Shown one piece after another: positions 53,207-59,807 of a stretch of DNA of 64,000 bases. The DNA lies in NCBI GenBank assembly GCA_938003835.1, contig CALKXJ010000010.1, positions 1-64,000 of the forward strand, read 5' to 3'. The notes under the pieces were generated by a model. That model worked only from the letters and a program-made list of their open reading frames with translations. It was not told where the DNA came from and ran no database searches. The position numbers were made by a program, and so were the translations under genes. Origin of the DNA: an uncultured Bryobacteraceae bacterium (GTDB lineage Bacteria > Acidobacteriota > Terriglobia > Bryobacterales > Bryobacteraceae). The number at the start of each line of letters is the position of its first letter. The stretch's first letter is position 1.

Positions 53207-53259
53207 GTCCACTATTTAACCACGGAGGCCGGTCGGCCGAAGCGTTGGATGGCGCGCGG

Positions 53260-53265
53260 TATAAT
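53260..53265 (+). promoter_or_regulatory. -10 box (TATAAT) six bases before the oxidoreductase start
   Basis: A perfect TATAAT is followed six bases later by GTG 53272. There is no Shine-Dalgarno in between, so the mRNA is probably leaderless. A -35 is not obvious. Confidence 0.5.
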
Positions 53266-53271
53266 CGCCAA

Positions 53272-55323
53272 GTGTCCCCTGCCGGAGGGTTCCGCCGTTC
53301 GGTCTGCGCCCTGGATTGTCCCGACGCCTGCGCCGTGCTCGTCCAGGTGGAGGACGGCCGCGCCTTCCGGCTCCGCGGCGATCCGGCGCATCCCATCACG
53401 CGCGGCTTTCTTTGCGCCAAGGTGACCCGCTACCTCGAACGCGAATACTCGCCCGAGCGGCTGCTCTATCCGCTGATGCGCACCGGACTCAAAGGCGAGG
53501 GGCGATTCATGCGCGTCTCCTGGGAGACCGCGCTCGACCTCATTGCGGAGCGGCTCCGGGAGATCAGCGACTACTACGGCCCGGAGGCCATTCTCCCTTA
53601 CAGCTACACGGGCACCATGGGCCTGCTGAACGGCTCGAGCATGGACCGGCGCTTCTTCCACCGCCTCGGCGCCTCCCGCCTGGACCGCACCATCTGCTCG
53701 GCCGCCGGCTCGGCGGCGCTCACGGCTTCGCTGGGCTACCGCTACGGCACCGATCCCGAGCAGTTCCCTGAAGCCCGCCTGATTCTGGCCTGGGGCGCCA
53801 ACATCCTGGCCACAAACGTTCACCTTTGGCCCTTCATCGTCGAGGCGCGCCGCCGCGGCGCCCGCTTCTATGTGATCGACCCGGTCCAGACGCGCACGGC
53901 GGAAGTGGCGGACAAGCATTTCGCCATCGAGCCCGGCACAGATCTGGCGCTCGCCCTCGGCATGATGCACGTCATCATCGGCGAAGGGCTTTACGATGCG
54001 GGTTACGTCGCCCGGCACTGTTCGGGTTTCGAAGAGTTGAGCGAGCTGGTCCGCCAGTACCCGCCCGAGCGCGCCGCCTCGCTCACCGGGCTCCAGCCGG
54101 AGGAAATTGTAGGCTTGGCCCGGGAGTATGCCACCCGGCGACCCGCGGTGATTCGCCTCAACTACGGCGTGCAGCGGACCGACTACGGGGGCGCGGCTGT
54201 GCGGGGGATCGCCGCCCTGCCTGCCCTGACGGGCTCCTGGCGCGAACCGGGCGGCGGCCTGCTGCTCAGCACGACGCACGCCTTCGCCTTCGACCGCCAG
54301 GCGCTCGAACGGCCCGACCTCGAACTGGCCTCGCCGCTCGGCCGGGAGGCGCGCCGGGTGAACATGAACGAGCTCGGTAAGGCCCTCACGTCGCTCGTCG
54401 ATCCCCCGATCCAGGCCCTCGTTGTCTATAACTCGAACCCCGCCGCCGTGGCGCCCAATCAGAATCTGGTGCTCGAGGGATTGCGCAGGCCGGACCTCTT
54501 CACCGTCGTCATCGAGCAGTTCCAGACCGACACAGCCGACTACGCCGACGTGGTGCTGCCGGCTACCACCTTTCTCGAGCACACCGATCTCTATTACTCC
54601 TGGGGCCATTACTACCTGCAACTGGCGCGGCCCGCGGTCGAGGCGCCGGGCGAGTGCAAGTCGAATTTCGAGATCTTCCGCCTGCTGGCGCAACGCATGG
54701 GTTTCCAAGAGCCCTGTTTCCGCGAGACGGAAGAGGAGGCCATCCGGGCGGCCTTAGCGAGCGGTCATCCTTTTCTCGAAGGGATCACCTACGAGCGGCT
54801 TTCGAGCGAGCCCTGGGTGCGCCTCAACCTGGGCGAACTTTTCCTGCCCTTCGCCGCAGGCGGCTTCGGGACTCCCTCCGGCAAGTGCGAGTTTGGCGCC
54901 GCGCAACTCGATTTCCGGCCCCCGATCGAGTCCCGCCGGGGTGACGAGGTGCTCCGGCGGCGCTACTCGCTCGAGCTGGTTTCCCTCAAGGCCGCCGAGG
55001 GGCTGAACTCGAGCTTCGGCAACTGGCCGGAGGTCGACCGGGCGACCTCGGTGGCCTGGCTGAATGCCCAAGACGCTGCCGCGCGCGGTATCCGCGATGG
55101 GGACCTGGTGCGCCTGTTCAACGACCGGGGAAGTTGCCTGCTGCGCGCCTCCGTGAACGGCAAAGTCCGGCCGGGCATCGTGGCCGCGCCCTCCATCCGC
55201 TGGGCGCGCCTTGCGCCCGGCGGGCGGAACGTCAACGCCCTCACCTCCGACCGGCTCGCCGACCTTGGCGGCGGCGCAGTATTCTACAGTTGTCTGGTTG
55301 AAGTGGAGCGATGCGACGACTGA
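53272..55323 (+). CDS. molybdopterin-dependent oxidoreductase with an N-terminal [4Fe-4S] site
   Basis: GTG 53272 is chosen from the adjacent TATAAT. The product has 683 residues. Cys12, Cys16, Cys20 and Cys48 (SVCALDCPDACAVLVQ, then GFLCAKV) form the iron-sulfur motif. The molybdopterin domains follow (SYTGTMGLLNGSSMDRRFFH, ILAWGANILATNVHLWP, VIDPVQTRTAEVADKHFAIE, YNSNPAAVAPNQNLVLEGL), with a C-terminal molydop-binding barrel (DAAARGIRDGDLVRLFNDRG). It has no Tat signal, so it acts in the cytoplasm. The group includes formate-dehydrogenase-like and other oxidoreductases; the substrate is unclear. It overlaps the lipoprotein gene by 13 bases. Confidence 0.9.
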   Translation: MSPAGGFRRSVCALDCPDACAVLVQVEDGRAFRLRGDPAHPITRGFLCAKVTRYLEREYSPERLLYPLMRTGLKGEGRFMRVSWETALDLIAERLREISDYYGPEAILPYSYTGTMGLLNGSSMDRRFFHRLGASRLDRTICSAAGSAALTASLGYRYGTDPEQFPEARLILAWGANILATNVHLWPFIVEARRRGARFYVIDPVQTRTAEVADKHFAIEPGTDLALALGMMHVIIGEGLYDAGYVARHCSGFEELSELVRQYPPERAASLTGLQPEEIVGLAREYATRRPAVIRLNYGVQRTDYGGAAVRGIAALPALTGSWREPGGGLLLSTTHAFAFDRQALERPDLELASPLGREARRVNMNELGKALTSLVDPPIQALVVYNSNPAAVAPNQNLVLEGLRRPDLFTVVIEQFQTDTADYADVVLPATTFLEHTDLYYSWGHYYLQLARPAVEAPGECKSNFEIFRLLAQRMGFQEPCFRETEEEAIRAALASGHPFLEGITYERLSSEPWVRLNLGELFLPFAAGGFGTPSGKCEFGAAQLDFRPPIESRRGDEVLRRRYSLELVSLKAAEGLNSSFGNWPEVDRATSVAWLNAQDAAARGIRDGDLVRLFNDRGSCLLRASVNGKVRPGIVAAPSIRWARLAPGGRNVNALTSDRLADLGGGAVFYSCLVEVERCDD

Positions 55324-55844: not shown

Positions 55845-57709
55845 AGCGCGCCCTGCGCGCCGCCTGGCTGGCAGCCCCGGTTGCGGTCTTCCTGGCTTTC
55901 TACTGGCGGGGGCTCTTCATCTGGTTTGCGCAGGATGACTTTGCGTGGCTCAATCTCAGCCTCCGGTTTAACGAGGGCTATAGCCTGTGGCGACTCGCTC
56001 TGGAGCCGGCCGCCCAAGGTACCATCCGGCCTTTGAGCGAGCGGCTGTTTTTCATCGGCTTCCACCAGTGGTTCGGCCTGGACGCGCTTCCCTACCGTGC
56101 TCTGATCTACCTGACGCAGGCCGCCAACCTCCTCCTGGTGACCCTGATCGCCCGCCGCCTCACCGGTTCGCCCCTCGCTGCGGCTGTGGCGGCGATCTTT
56201 TGGACGCTCAACGCCGGCGTCGCCGCAAGTCTCTCGTGGACATCTACTTACAATCAAATCCTCTGCTGCTTCTTCATCCTCGCCGCCTTCCTCTTCTTTC
56301 TCCGATACACCGAAACCGGCGAGCGCCGTTACTACGCCGCGCAGTGGCTGGCCTTTCTGGCCGGCTTCGGAGCACTCGAGTTGAATGCTGCCTACCCGGC
56401 GCTGGCAGGGCTCTACGCTCTCGTCCGGGCCAAGCGATACCTCGCAAGCACCCTGCCCCTGTTCGCGGTCTCGGCTGTCTACGCCATCCTTCATCAAACC
56501 GTGTCGCCGAAGCCTGCCTCTGGCCCTTATGCCTTTCATTGGGGCTGGGATATGTTTGCCACCCTCATCGAATACGTGAAGTGGATGGCGGGCGGTGTGC
56601 GCTTCCAGGAGATCTTTGGGCTTCACCGGTTGGATTGGCTGGGATGGCTCACGACCGTCGCTGTAGGCCTTGCCCTGGCGGCGTTTCTCGTCCTGAGGCT
56701 CGCTCACCGGGATTGGCGCCCCGTCTTTTTTGCCGGCTGGTTCCTCATCTTCCTGGCGCCTGTGCTTCCCCTTCGAGATCACTTCTCCGGCTACTACCTG
56801 ACTCTGCCGGCCATTGGTCCGGCGCTCCTTGGCGGTTGGGCATTCGCTTCGGCGTGGCAGGCGCGGCGTGGCCGCCGCGCAGCAGCCGTCGTAGTGGCCG
56901 GCTTATACCTCGGCGTCTCGACCGCGGTGGCGCATGCGACACTCTCTTGGCAGCTCGTCCGAACCGAACAGGCGCGCCGCCTCGTACTTGGCATCGGTCG
57001 CGCGCAGGCGCTCCACCAAGGAAAGGTCATTCTATTAGAGGGGGTTAGCAATGAGATCTTCTGGGGTTGCGTCAGGGACAGGCCCTTTCCCTTGGTGGGC
57101 GCCGCCCACGTCTACCTCGCCCCTGGATCAACCCGCGCCATCGAACCTCATCCGGAGCTGGCCGAGCTGAGCGAGTACGAGCTCCCAGCGCGACCCGCCG
57201 CGCGCCTGCTCCGCGCGGGCGAAGCCGTCGTTTATGACGTCTCCGGACGCAGGCCCAGGAACGTCACGCGCCTGTTTCGAGCCTCGCTGGGCCCACCGGA
57301 ACGCCTGCCTCCGGCACGCTGGATCGATGCCGGAAAGCCGTGGTTTGCGGACCAGATCGGTCCGGGCTGGCATCCGGAAGAGCGCGGCTACCGGTGGATG
57401 GGAAGACAAGCGGAGTTGAGACTCGGCGGGCCGCAGAAACCGGGCGAGGTCCTTTACATCGCGGGCTTCTGCCCGGCACGCCAGCTTGTGCAGGGGCCTC
57501 TCGAGCTCAGGGTCGGCATTGAAGGCGGCGAGCCGTACCGCGTCCGTCTGACCAGACCCGATGCCGGCTTCGAGTTCCGCTTCCCGCTCGCCCCGGAACT
57601 CATGGGTAAAGAATCGGTTCTTGTATCTCTCGAGGTGGAGCGAACCTTCGTGGCGCCCGGCGAGAACCGCCAGCTTGGCTTGGCCTTCGGCATCTTCGCC
57701 ATACGCTAA
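55841..57709 (+). CDS. GT-C-type polytopic membrane protein with a C-terminal beta domain
   Basis: The product has 622 residues. About ten hydrophobic segments fill residues 1-370. After TM1 comes IWFAQDDFAWLNLSLRF, whose acidic pair sits where GT-C transferases have the catalytic Asp. RPLSERLFFIGFHQWFGLD follows, as in O-mannosyl or lipid-linked-sugar transferases. The last 250 residues are soluble and beta-rich (GEVLYIAGFCPARQLVQGPL, LRVGIEGGEPYRVRL), like a carbohydrate-binding module. It probably transfers a sugar from polyprenyl phosphate in the periplasm. Confidence 0.75.
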   Translation: MKRALRAAWLAAPVAVFLAFYWRGLFIWFAQDDFAWLNLSLRFNEGYSLWRLALEPAAQGTIRPLSERLFFIGFHQWFGLDALPYRALIYLTQAANLLLVTLIARRLTGSPLAAAVAAIFWTLNAGVAASLSWTSTYNQILCCFFILAAFLFFLRYTETGERRYYAAQWLAFLAGFGALELNAAYPALAGLYALVRAKRYLASTLPLFAVSAVYAILHQTVSPKPASGPYAFHWGWDMFATLIEYVKWMAGGVRFQEIFGLHRLDWLGWLTTVAVGLALAAFLVLRLAHRDWRPVFFAGWFLIFLAPVLPLRDHFSGYYLTLPAIGPALLGGWAFASAWQARRGRRAAAVVVAGLYLGVSTAVAHATLSWQLVRTEQARRLVLGIGRAQALHQGKVILLEGVSNEIFWGCVRDRPFPLVGAAHVYLAPGSTRAIEPHPELAELSEYELPARPAARLLRAGEAVVYDVSGRRPRNVTRLFRASLGPPERLPPARWIDAGKPWFADQIGPGWHPEERGYRWMGRQAELRLGGPQKPGEVLYIAGFCPARQLVQGPLELRVGIEGGEPYRVRLTRPDAGFEFRFPLAPELMGKESVLVSLEVERTFVAPGENRQLGLAFGIFAIR

Positions 57710-57841
57710 GAGGACCCAGCAGCCTGCGTAGCGAGGTCCGCCTTGACCCTATAGGAGAGGCTGGCGGCGGCCGATATGGATTAAGCGCATGCGGCCCGCT
57801 GTCCGGTTCAGGCCTGGTTGGAAAACGCGTCGATCTCTGAA

Positions 57842-57880
57842 ACTTTCCTGTCAAGAAAGTCGTCACACGTGTGCTATGAT
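57842..57880 (+). promoter_or_regulatory. promoter with operator-like palindromes upstream of the DksA/TraR gene
   Basis: TGCTATGAT at 57872-57880 is an extended -10. Immediately overlapping it is the perfect palindrome CACACGTGTG (57864-57873). Further up is ACTTTC-N7-GAAAGT (57842-57860). Both are well placed for a repressor or activator. No consensus -35 is visible, which fits an extended -10 promoter. Confidence 0.5.
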
Positions 57881-57887
57881 CTTTGGT

Positions 57888-58126
57888 CAGGCGCTGACCA
57901 GCCGGTCCGGGCCGGGGAGGACCGTCGAGCCGAGGCGCCCGGGCTGCTCCCCGGTTCCGGCGGCCTTACGCTTTTTGCAACTTTCCTGCCGTCCCTGCGT
58001 CTCTATTAAAGCGCAAGACAAGGAGGTGCGACGAAAGGACCGGACCTGACTGGAATGCGCGTGGTTTGAGTAAAGGCGGGTTGGCTAACCGGCCACCCCC
58101 AGGAGCCGAAAGGAGAAGGAAGAGCC
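57888..58126 (+). other. long G+C-rich leader with alternative hairpins upstream of the DksA/TraR gene
   Basis: CGGTCC (57903-57908) pairs with GGACCG (57919-57924). CCGGGGAG (57912-57919) pairs perfectly with CTCCCCGG (57947-57954). The two stems compete for the same bases, so they may be alternative folds. A short AGCC/GGCT stem lies between the arms of the second. A coding function is unlikely here. It may be a structured 5' leader or a separate small RNA. A strong GAAAGGAGAAGG site precedes the gene at 58127. Confidence 0.4.
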
Positions 58127-58510
58127 ATGGTTAACAAGACCGAATTGAAAAAGTTCAGGAAGATTCTCGAGGCGAAGCAAGCTGAGCTGGCTCGCGTGCT
58201 TCGCAACCGCGAAGCCATCGCGATCGAGAAGAGCGCCGACGCCATTGACGAAGTTCAGCACGCCGCCGAACGGGAATTGGCCATCCGCAACCTGGACCGC
58301 GAGTCTCAACTTCTCCGCATGGTGAAACTGGCGCTCCAGCGCATGGACGAGGGAAGCTACGGCATCTGTCTACACTGCGAAGAGCCGATCAACCCGAAAC
58401 GGCTGGCGGCCGTGCCGTGGGCTCCTTACTGTATCCGCTGCCAGGAGGCGATCGACCAGCAGCAGGAGACCGAGGACATCCTCGAGGACCTGCTCGTCAA
58501 CGCCGCGTAA
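58127..58510 (+). CDS. DksA/TraR-family zinc-finger protein
   Basis: The product has 127 residues. The N-terminal coiled-coil (LKKFRKILEAKQAELARVLR) has acidic residues near its tip (SADAIDEVQ). The C-terminal C4 zinc finger has CLHCEEPINP and CIRCQEAID, with the GSYGICLHCEE entry typical of the family. DksA-type proteins enter the RNA polymerase secondary channel and tune transcription with ppGpp; TraR-type members can act without it. GAAAGGAGAAGG gives strong translation initiation. The long structured leader suggests tight control. Confidence 0.9.
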   Translation: MVNKTELKKFRKILEAKQAELARVLRNREAIAIEKSADAIDEVQHAAERELAIRNLDRESQLLRMVKLALQRMDEGSYGICLHCEEPINPKRLAAVPWAPYCIRCQEAIDQQQETEDILEDLLVNAA

Positions 58511-58523
58511 TTCGTCTGGACCG

Positions 58524-58548
58524 GGGCGCGGGATCTCTTCCCGCGCCC
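58524..58548. terminator. terminator hairpin between convergent genes
   Basis: GGGCGCGGGA pairs with TTCCCGCGCCC through a perfect ten-base stem around a five-base loop. It lies 13 bases after the stop of the DksA/TraR gene and nine before the convergent pgeF stop. The following bases (TTGGTGTCT) are only moderately T-rich, so it may serve both directions weakly. Confidence 0.65.
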
Positions 58549-58556
58549 TTGGTGTC

Positions 58557-59243
58557 TCAGGGCTCCCGAATGCCGATCACCGACCACATCCTTCCCCGGA
58601 GTAAGGGTTCCCGGCGGTGGGAGTGGAACTCTTCCGGAGAGCAGCAAGTGCACAGGTCCGCCGTCCAGATCCGCTCCGCCGCCACGCTCGCCGCAATCAG
58701 CTCACGCCGGTTCGCCTCCACGAGGTCAAGCCGGACGCTGCCCTGAGACCCATTCAGTTCGGGCAGCAGGCTCCGGAACCGTTCCGCGACCTCCGGACCC
58801 ACTTCATAACAGCACACCCCGATGCCGGGCCCGATTGCCACGACCAGATCCTCCGGTCGGCAGGAGAAGCTCCGGCGCAGGGTTTCCACGGTCCGGCGGA
58901 CAATGCCTCGCGCCGTCCCGCGCCAGCCCGCATGGACTGCGGCGACAACCCGCCGCCTCGGGTCCGCCATCAGAATGGGAAGGCAGTCGGCCGTCTTCAC
59001 GCCCAGAAGCAGCCCGGGCCGGTCGGTGGCGACAGCATCTCCCTCTCCGATGCAACCCAAGGCTCCATCGGCGATTCGCACGACGTCACTGTGGGTCTGC
59101 GCCAGGGAAACCAGCCGGCTGCGGTCCGGCCAACCGTGGGTGTTCCGCGTGCCGAAACCGTGCTCGAGCCAATCGAGGGCGTCGAGCAGGGGGCTCCGGT
59201 AGACGGAACCCTCCTTCAGCAGGGCGGAGGGCATCCGGGACAC
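58557..59243 (-). CDS. pgeF: peptidoglycan editing factor, laccase-domain (YfiH) family
   Basis: The product has 228 residues. Family motifs are in order: QTHSDVVRI, KTADCLPILMAD, VAAVHAGWRGTARGIVRRT, VAIGPGIGVCCYEVGPEV and WTADLCTCCSPEEFHSHRRE, including the metal-binding His and Cys residues. In E. coli the protein removes mis-incorporated amino acids from peptidoglycan precursors; older names call it polyphenol oxidase. Its ATG is directly behind the stop of the nuoB gene, so the two share a transcript. Confidence 0.92.
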   Translation of the reverse strand: MSRMPSALLKEGSVYRSPLLDALDWLEHGFGTRNTHGWPDRSRLVSLAQTHSDVVRIADGALGCIGEGDAVATDRPGLLLGVKTADCLPILMADPRRRVVAAVHAGWRGTARGIVRRTVETLRRSFSCRPEDLVVAIGPGIGVCCYEVGPEVAERFRSLLPELNGSQGSVRLDLVEANRRELIAASVAAERIWTADLCTCCSPEEFHSHRREPLLRGRMWSVIGIREP

Positions 59244-59807
59244 TCAGGCTGGGTGCGGCGTTTGGGCGATCATCACCTTGCGCTTGAACTGCTCCAGCAT
59301 GCTCTCATCCAGGCGGACCTCGGTCGGCCGCCGCACCAGGTAGGGCATCCGGTCGATCTTGTCCTGAAGCTTCATCAGGCCGTAAAACAGATTCTCCGGA
59401 CGCGGCGGGCAGCCTGTGATGTAGACGTCCACCGGCACGATCTTATCCACGCCCTGGAGCACGCAGTAGGTGTTGAAGGGTCCCCCGACGCTCGAGCAGG
59501 CGCCCATCGAGATCACCCATTTCGGATCCGGCATCTGGTCGTAGATCCGCTTGAGCACCGGCGCCATCTTGAGCGTCACCGTGCCGGCCACAATCATTAA
59601 GTCGGACTGGCGCGGGCTGGGCCGGAAGACCTCGGCGCCGAACCGGGCGATATCGAACCGCGCGGTGCTGGCCGTGATCATTTCGATGGCGCAGCAGGCC
59701 AGCCCGAAGGTGAGCGGCCACAGCGACGACTCGCGCGCCCAGTTGAAGACGTAGTCCACCGTCGTGGTCAGGAAATTCTTTTCGAACTGATTCTGGAGAA
59801 AGGACAT
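59244..59807 (-). CDS. nuoB: NADH-quinone oxidoreductase subunit B, standalone copy
   Basis: The product has 187 residues. The four Cys that bind the N2 [4Fe-4S] cluster are present: the pair in [11 protein letters not shown], one in [10 protein letters not shown] and one in [12 protein letters not shown]. It is the soluble subunit of complex I that hands electrons to quinone. The other nuo genes are not adjacent, and the C-terminus ([15 protein letters not shown]) is normal. A TAGAAT (59850-59855, minus strand) is a plausible -10. The genome probably has another complete nuo operon, or a split one. Confidence 0.93.

Follow-up and report, generated by a model that had tools for sequence, protein, structure and literature searches.

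What controls a DksA-like gene when the 417 bp of intergenic DNA in front of it contain palindromes, potential hairpins and an extended -10? The gene lies within a 64,000-nucleotide stretch from an uncultured Bryobacteraceae bacterium (the window, meaning the whole of the DNA analysed), on contig C10 of a 5.0-Mb genome in 38 contigs. The original prediction had proposed operators at the promoter together with competing RNA folds in the leader, or an independent small RNA. Comparison with related genomes suggests another answer: the intergenic region is probably a stacked array of predicted promoters for several sigma factors, all serving one DksA-like gene. Such an array is a case of the known multi-sigma promoter region and not a new RNA element.

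The prediction of a DksA/TraR-type gene was correct, both in its start (ATG at 58127) and in its protein class. The product carries a C4-type zinc finger of the zf-dskA_traR family (PF01258, 48.7 bits against a cut-off of 24.9). Two acidic residues at the tip of the coiled coil have a functional role in DksA, and the acidic pair is retained here, where the DAID stretch of the 127-aa protein aligns with DPVD of E. coli DksA (1tjl), its best solved relative. The DksA equivalog model TIGR02420 gives 76.5 bits, below its cut-off of 115.5; the protein is thus DksA-like and stands outside NCBI's curated DksA proper. A homolog is present in 198 of 200 family genomes, and the closest of the 89 other orthologs shares 77.8% identity with the gene at 58127-58510. 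The nearest DksA-like paralog in the same genome (G000:C2:892-1221) was considered as the true ortholog and rejected, its best identity being 58.2% vs 77.8%; upstream of this paralog (locus L005), GAAACCTCTCACCCCCCACCGTCGTC shows an ECF-like layout with a spacer of 17. In a class-wide search, homologs outside the Bryobacteraceae-like family drop to 33-45% identity among the matches listed. Three loci titled Acidimicrobiia, Bordetella parapertussis and Arcobacter (L097, L163 and L167) carry the family's DksA-like gene at 75%, 66% and 67% identity, respectively, and look like mistitled metagenome bins. Elsewhere in the window, positions 53245-55323 encode a molybdopterin oxidoreductase (692 aa) from the formate dehydrogenase / DMSO reductase group, which scores under the curated cut-off in each of the 25 families listed. 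The features in and around the intergenic region are collected in the table.

Table. Features of the DksA-like gene and its upstream region, in window coordinates.
Feature	Position	Strand	Observation
Predicted sigma28/WhiG-type promoter element, TATA-N17-CCGATATG	57750..57778	+	11 of 12 positions match
Predicted upstream ECF-type element, GAAACTTTCC..CGTCAC (GAAAC-N17-CGTCAC)	57839..57866	+	Spacer 17; 9 of 11 positions match
Predicted extended -10, TGTGCTATGAT (housekeeping-sigma type)	57870..57880	+	Exact match; no recognisable -35
Leader stems, CGGTCC/GGACCG and CCGGGGAG/CTCCCCGG	57903..57954	+	Strings real; structure unsupported
Predicted gene-proximal ECF-type element, GCAACTTTCC..CGTCTC (GCAAC-N16-CGTCTC)	57977..58003	+	Spacer 16; 9 of 11 positions match
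Ribosome-binding site (probable), AGGAG	58111..58115	+	From the sequence
DksA/TraR-like gene	58127..58510	+	127 aa; C4 zinc finger; profile and structure match

The ortholog set comprises one match per genome from 90 genomes, including that of the window. These are the best 90 of the 198 genomes with a match and, having been picked from the top of the list, under-represent low-identity homologs; they span 40 genera of Bryobacteraceae-like Acidobacteria, and the relatives sampled include Bryobacteraceae, Bryobacterales, Solibacter, Paludibaculum and generic Acidobacteria. For each ortholog the 480 nt 5' of the gene were scanned, with three of the 90 stretches shorter (216, 299 and 429 nt). Two-part blocks were first spotted by eye in 30 upstream regions, then in 90. 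The ECF pattern was GAAMC-N16/17-CGTCTA (11 positions, at least 10 matching), in keeping with the ECF promoter features of AAC in the -35 and CGT in the -10, with a 16+/-1 spacer for ECF41, given in the available part of PMC3426412. The sigma28/WhiG pattern was TAAW-N16..18-CCGATAWG (12 positions, at least 11), beside a flagellar-clade consensus of TAAA for the -35 and GCCGATAA for the -10 (PMC8325347, in part), and the sigma54 pattern was TGGCAC-N5-TTGCW (11 positions, at least 10), with PMC3844500, in part, as the source of the consensus. The extended -10 had to be exactly TGTGNTATNAT. Controls were shuffled upstream regions, the reverse strand, and the regions upstream of 55 mechanical ORFs of the window (at least 200 aa, as distinct from annotated genes). 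A hold-out of 20 sequences was obtained from 80 further loci after removal of 59 duplicates and one sequence that was too short.

The ECF-type pattern is found in 86 of the 90 upstream regions, against 1.0 of 90 in shuffles, 4 of 90 on the reverse strand and 0 of 55 controls. The sigma54 box occurs in 62 of 90 (shuffles 1.4/90, reverse strand 1/90, controls 0/55), the sigma28/WhiG-type element in 52 (0.6/90, 0/90 and 0/55, respectively) and the exact extended -10 in 33 (0.0/90, 0/90 and 0/55). The extended -10 proposed ahead of the gene is supported. With the threshold lowered by one, the sigma54 box reaches 79 of 90 (shuffles 7.2/90, reverse strand 11/90, controls 3/55), while chance matches rise to 12.0/90 shuffles and 3/55 controls for sigma28 and to 1.8/90 and 1/55 for the extended -10. 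The hold-out sequences are relatives of the orthologs that served to sharpen three of the patterns (ECF, sigma28 and extended -10). They contain the ECF element in all 20 (shuffles 0.1), sigma54 in 15 (0.0), sigma28 in 13 (0.2) and the exact extended -10 in 3 (0.0), or 8 of 20 at the looser threshold. Counted by genus, at least one carrier is found in 39 of 40 for ECF, 29 for sigma54, 28 for sigma28 and 27 for the extended -10 (looser threshold).

The elements also keep their order and internal geometry. Of 110 sequences, 3 depart from the succession distal ECF, sigma28, sigma54, extended -10, proximal ECF, and 7 of the 110 have a single element. Since position enters in part into the definition of the distal and proximal ECF sites, the order of these two relative to each other is no evidence. 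At the 79 sigma54 sites scoring at least 9, GG is kept in all and GG-N10-GC in 76. ECF sites have a spacer of 16 in 102 cases vs 17 in 15, counting these two spacers only, and 83 of the 90 upstream regions have a proximal ECF site scoring at least 9 within the last 215 nt. The spacer of the sigma28-like element is 17 in 45 of 52 cases, that of the E. coli FliA site being one shorter. As for the corresponding sigma factors, RpoN is encoded in 195 of 200 family genomes and a FliA/WhiG sigma scores over the cut-off in 193, the window's own genome included in both cases. Co-occurrence of element and sigma factor was therefore set aside as uninformative, the two sigma factors being nearly universal across the family.

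Two further features were seen in the orthologs. A dyad, TKAGY-N7-RCTMA, lies just 5' of the proximal ECF -35 (for instance in L086, L087 and L094), and its arms are exactly 7 nt apart in 34 of 83 orthologs, in a search that accepted any gap of 4-9 nt. Both of its variable positions are complementary in only 15 of these 34, which makes a protein operator likelier than an RNA stem; the dyad is not present in the window. The sigma54 spacer can contain a housekeeping -35-like TTGAAT; at 17 of 79 sites a -10-like hexamer follows it at a distance of exactly 16 nt, and in 50 of the 79 no such hexamer is found 14-19 nt downstream of it. It is possible that sigma54 and housekeeping polymerase compete for these sites, and for part of the family only.

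How does the window compare with its relatives? Judged by these patterns, it is a weaker and derived version of the array that the family carries. It has no sigma54 box: the best match reaches 8 of 11 in the wrong place and GG-N10-GC is not found. A sigma70 scan requiring a -35 found no two-hexamer site in 56500-59500, and the sharper ECF patterns described below have no match across the window's genome. Both ECF-type sites combine AAC in the -35 and CGT in the -10 with a spacer near 16. Their score of 9 of 11 is not rare in itself: shuffling yields it in 14.2 of 90 regions, and 6 of 55 controls reach it. What sets the two sites apart is a common 10-mer, AACTTTCCTG, which occurs only twice on the plus strand of the 64 kb. 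In addition, the proximal element takes in 8 of the 9 columns that are invariant in a 13-leader alignment, and a pattern built from that element is unique in the window's genome. Only the extended -10 and the strings GAAACTTTC and CAACTTTC are notable, since strings like them turn up again in related genomes.

The reading that started this work, operator palindromes followed by a leader that acts like an attenuator through two stems excluding each other, or else a separate small RNA, now seems highly improbable, true as it is that every string it named exists. ACTTTC (57842) and GAAAGT (57855) are separated by 7 nt, CACACGTGTG begins at 57864 and overlaps the extended -10, CGGTCC (57903) can pair with GGACCG (57919) and CCGGGGAG (57912) with CTCCCCGG (57947), and the two stems have base 57919 in common. 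The 110 sequences contain 39 extended -10 sites, and the window's is the single one to overlap a palindrome of at least 8 bp; perfect 10-bp palindromes number 112 in the 64 kb, or 0.73 per 417 bp. The ACTTTC/GAAAGT pair, allowing a gap of 5-9 nt, occurs in 2 of the 110, the window included. ACTTTC, the left half of this pair, forms the -35 side of the upstream ECF-like element, which spans all of ACTTTC-N7-GAAAGT plus three bases from the start of CACACGTGTG; the second such element sits inside the leader of about 240 bases. Perfect stems of 6 bp are found in 92% of 240-nt windows and of 8 bp in 17%, and the folding energy of the leader lies within the range of dinucleotide shuffles (z = +0.81 for 57887-58126, -0.16 for 57887-57976 and +0.31 for 57887-57960). 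For the alignment, the window was joined to 12 orthologs chosen for an extended -10 and high identity; in each of the 12, both stems lack some of their pairs (4 of 6 and 4 of 8 being the most that any retains), and RNAalifold returned 0 pairs for the 13 leaders. With a mean column identity of 31% the alignment is poor, so the lack of a conserved, covarying structure counts as missing support and does not disprove one. No terminator-like site was found in a simple scan of 56500-59500. As for a small RNA, an Rfam search of the window brought up no match that reaches the gathering score, and the invariant leader columns are, with one exception, those of the proximal ECF element. A conserved leader was also sought by DNA search in 61 genomes and given up; apart from the window itself it returned two matches of 30-32 bases, one inside a 671-codon reading frame and the other over the apparent start of another frame. 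Of the dual control originally proposed, complex control at the promoter stands and RNA folding is not supported. The palindromes and hairpins are mostly chance or fragments of promoter signals, and the leader is probably mere distance between promoters, no conserved structure having been detected in it.

Are all the blocks promoters? It may be that only one or two are, such as the extended -10 and the proximal ECF element, the CCGATA and TGGCA-N-TTGC blocks being sites for other proteins or relics. Uneven retention (86 of 90 for ECF against 62 and 52 for sigma54 and sigma28-like) and the missing sigma54 box of the window would suit this view, which we nevertheless hold unlikely: the elements are strand-specific and their two-part spacing, seen in the GG-N10-GC of sigma54 and the preferred ECF spacer, fits recognition by a holoenzyme. 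A different doubt concerns the GAAMC-N16-CGTCTA block, which could be the site of a dedicated two-part regulator instead of an ECF promoter. Genome-wide searches bear on this, with patterns that were shaped on the promoters of the DksA-like gene and are biased towards it. The sharpest, TTGAAACTTTT-N12/13-CGTCTAW, has 6 matches in 101 genomes (0 for the backward control), all 6 just upstream of the DksA-like gene. The pattern TGAAMYTT-N14/15-CGTCTA has 45 matches in 37 of the 101 genomes, while the backward control has 20 in sum. A DksA-like gene lies 66-224 nt downstream in 20 of the 30 loci retrieved, and 6 of the remaining 15 matches fall at known coordinates of the gene, giving at least 26 of 45. 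Of the 19 others, 10 were inspected and none has a DksA-like gene; away from the gene the pattern is at background (19 against 20), which speaks for a dedicated regulator. No ECF sigma gene was found beside the matches among 6 downstream ORFs scanned at the 10 non-dksA loci. Against such a regulator, AAC and CGT with about 16 nt between the two parts make up the ECF layout given in the available part of PMC3426412, the strand and distance to the ATG suit a start site, and the pattern also precedes an HlyD-type gene in two species of one genus. We regard the dedicated regulator as quite improbable. In L204 and L205 (position 1501) the ECF-type pattern stands 53-55 nt before this HlyD-type membrane-fusion gene, and the ECF regulon may on that account exceed one gene.

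If the multi-sigma array is the correct reading, each element would be used by its own holoenzyme, and transcription would start at successive sites. Sigma54 with an enhancer-binding protein, a flagellar-clade sigma and an ECF stress sigma might then each raise the level of the DksA-like protein, a secondary-channel factor that tunes RNA polymerase. The window has lost the sigma54 box and carries a second ECF-like copy immediately 5' of the extended -10. A bolder and rather doubtful extension is that an ECF-type sigma has the DksA-like gene as its main target. A stress signal would then work through the secondary-channel factor, reprogramming RNA polymerase everywhere without a wide regulon of its own, and sigma28- and sigma54-type inputs would join the same node.

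A recurring array of this kind predicts that the amount of the DksA-like factor is itself a signal with several inputs in this family, and it gives exact, testable promoter positions in the Bryobacteraceae-like group. A literature search covering few subscription papers found no work on dksA promoters in Acidobacteria or Solibacter, and the titles or abstract openings of the best-ranked dksA/sigma matches describe no such array.

The closest precedents are found in enteric bacteria. The rpoH gene of E. coli and Salmonella has sigma70 and sigmaE promoters. In the available part of PMC3844500, rpoH is listed among the sigma54 operons and has additional promoters; it is likewise one regulatory gene with sigma54 and further promoters. 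Its product is sigma32, whereas here it is a DksA-like protein and a sigma28/WhiG-type element is added, and, unlike rpoH, the array belongs to another phylum and a 40-genus sample (39 genera for ECF-type, 27-29 for the others). For ECF41, the part of PMC3426412 available likewise gives a CGTC -10 and a 16+/-1 spacer, reported there for a single transcript; its -35 is TGTCACA against GAAMC here, where the target is the DksA-like gene. As to dksA itself, ppGpp is in E. coli the variable partner of a constant DksA. That constant level is attributed to negative feedback in the accessible text of PMC4370453. For the dksA gene of E. coli and Shigella, three promoters were reported (Kang and Craig, 1990, cited by PMC3542578, in part), and a DksA-type gene is thus served by several promoters there as well. 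The sections available of PMC3542578 and PMC4370453 describe no sigma54, sigma28 or ECF promoter for E. coli dksA, and in contrast to the constant level in E. coli, the layout of the array suggests a supply of the DksA-like factor that depends on conditions.
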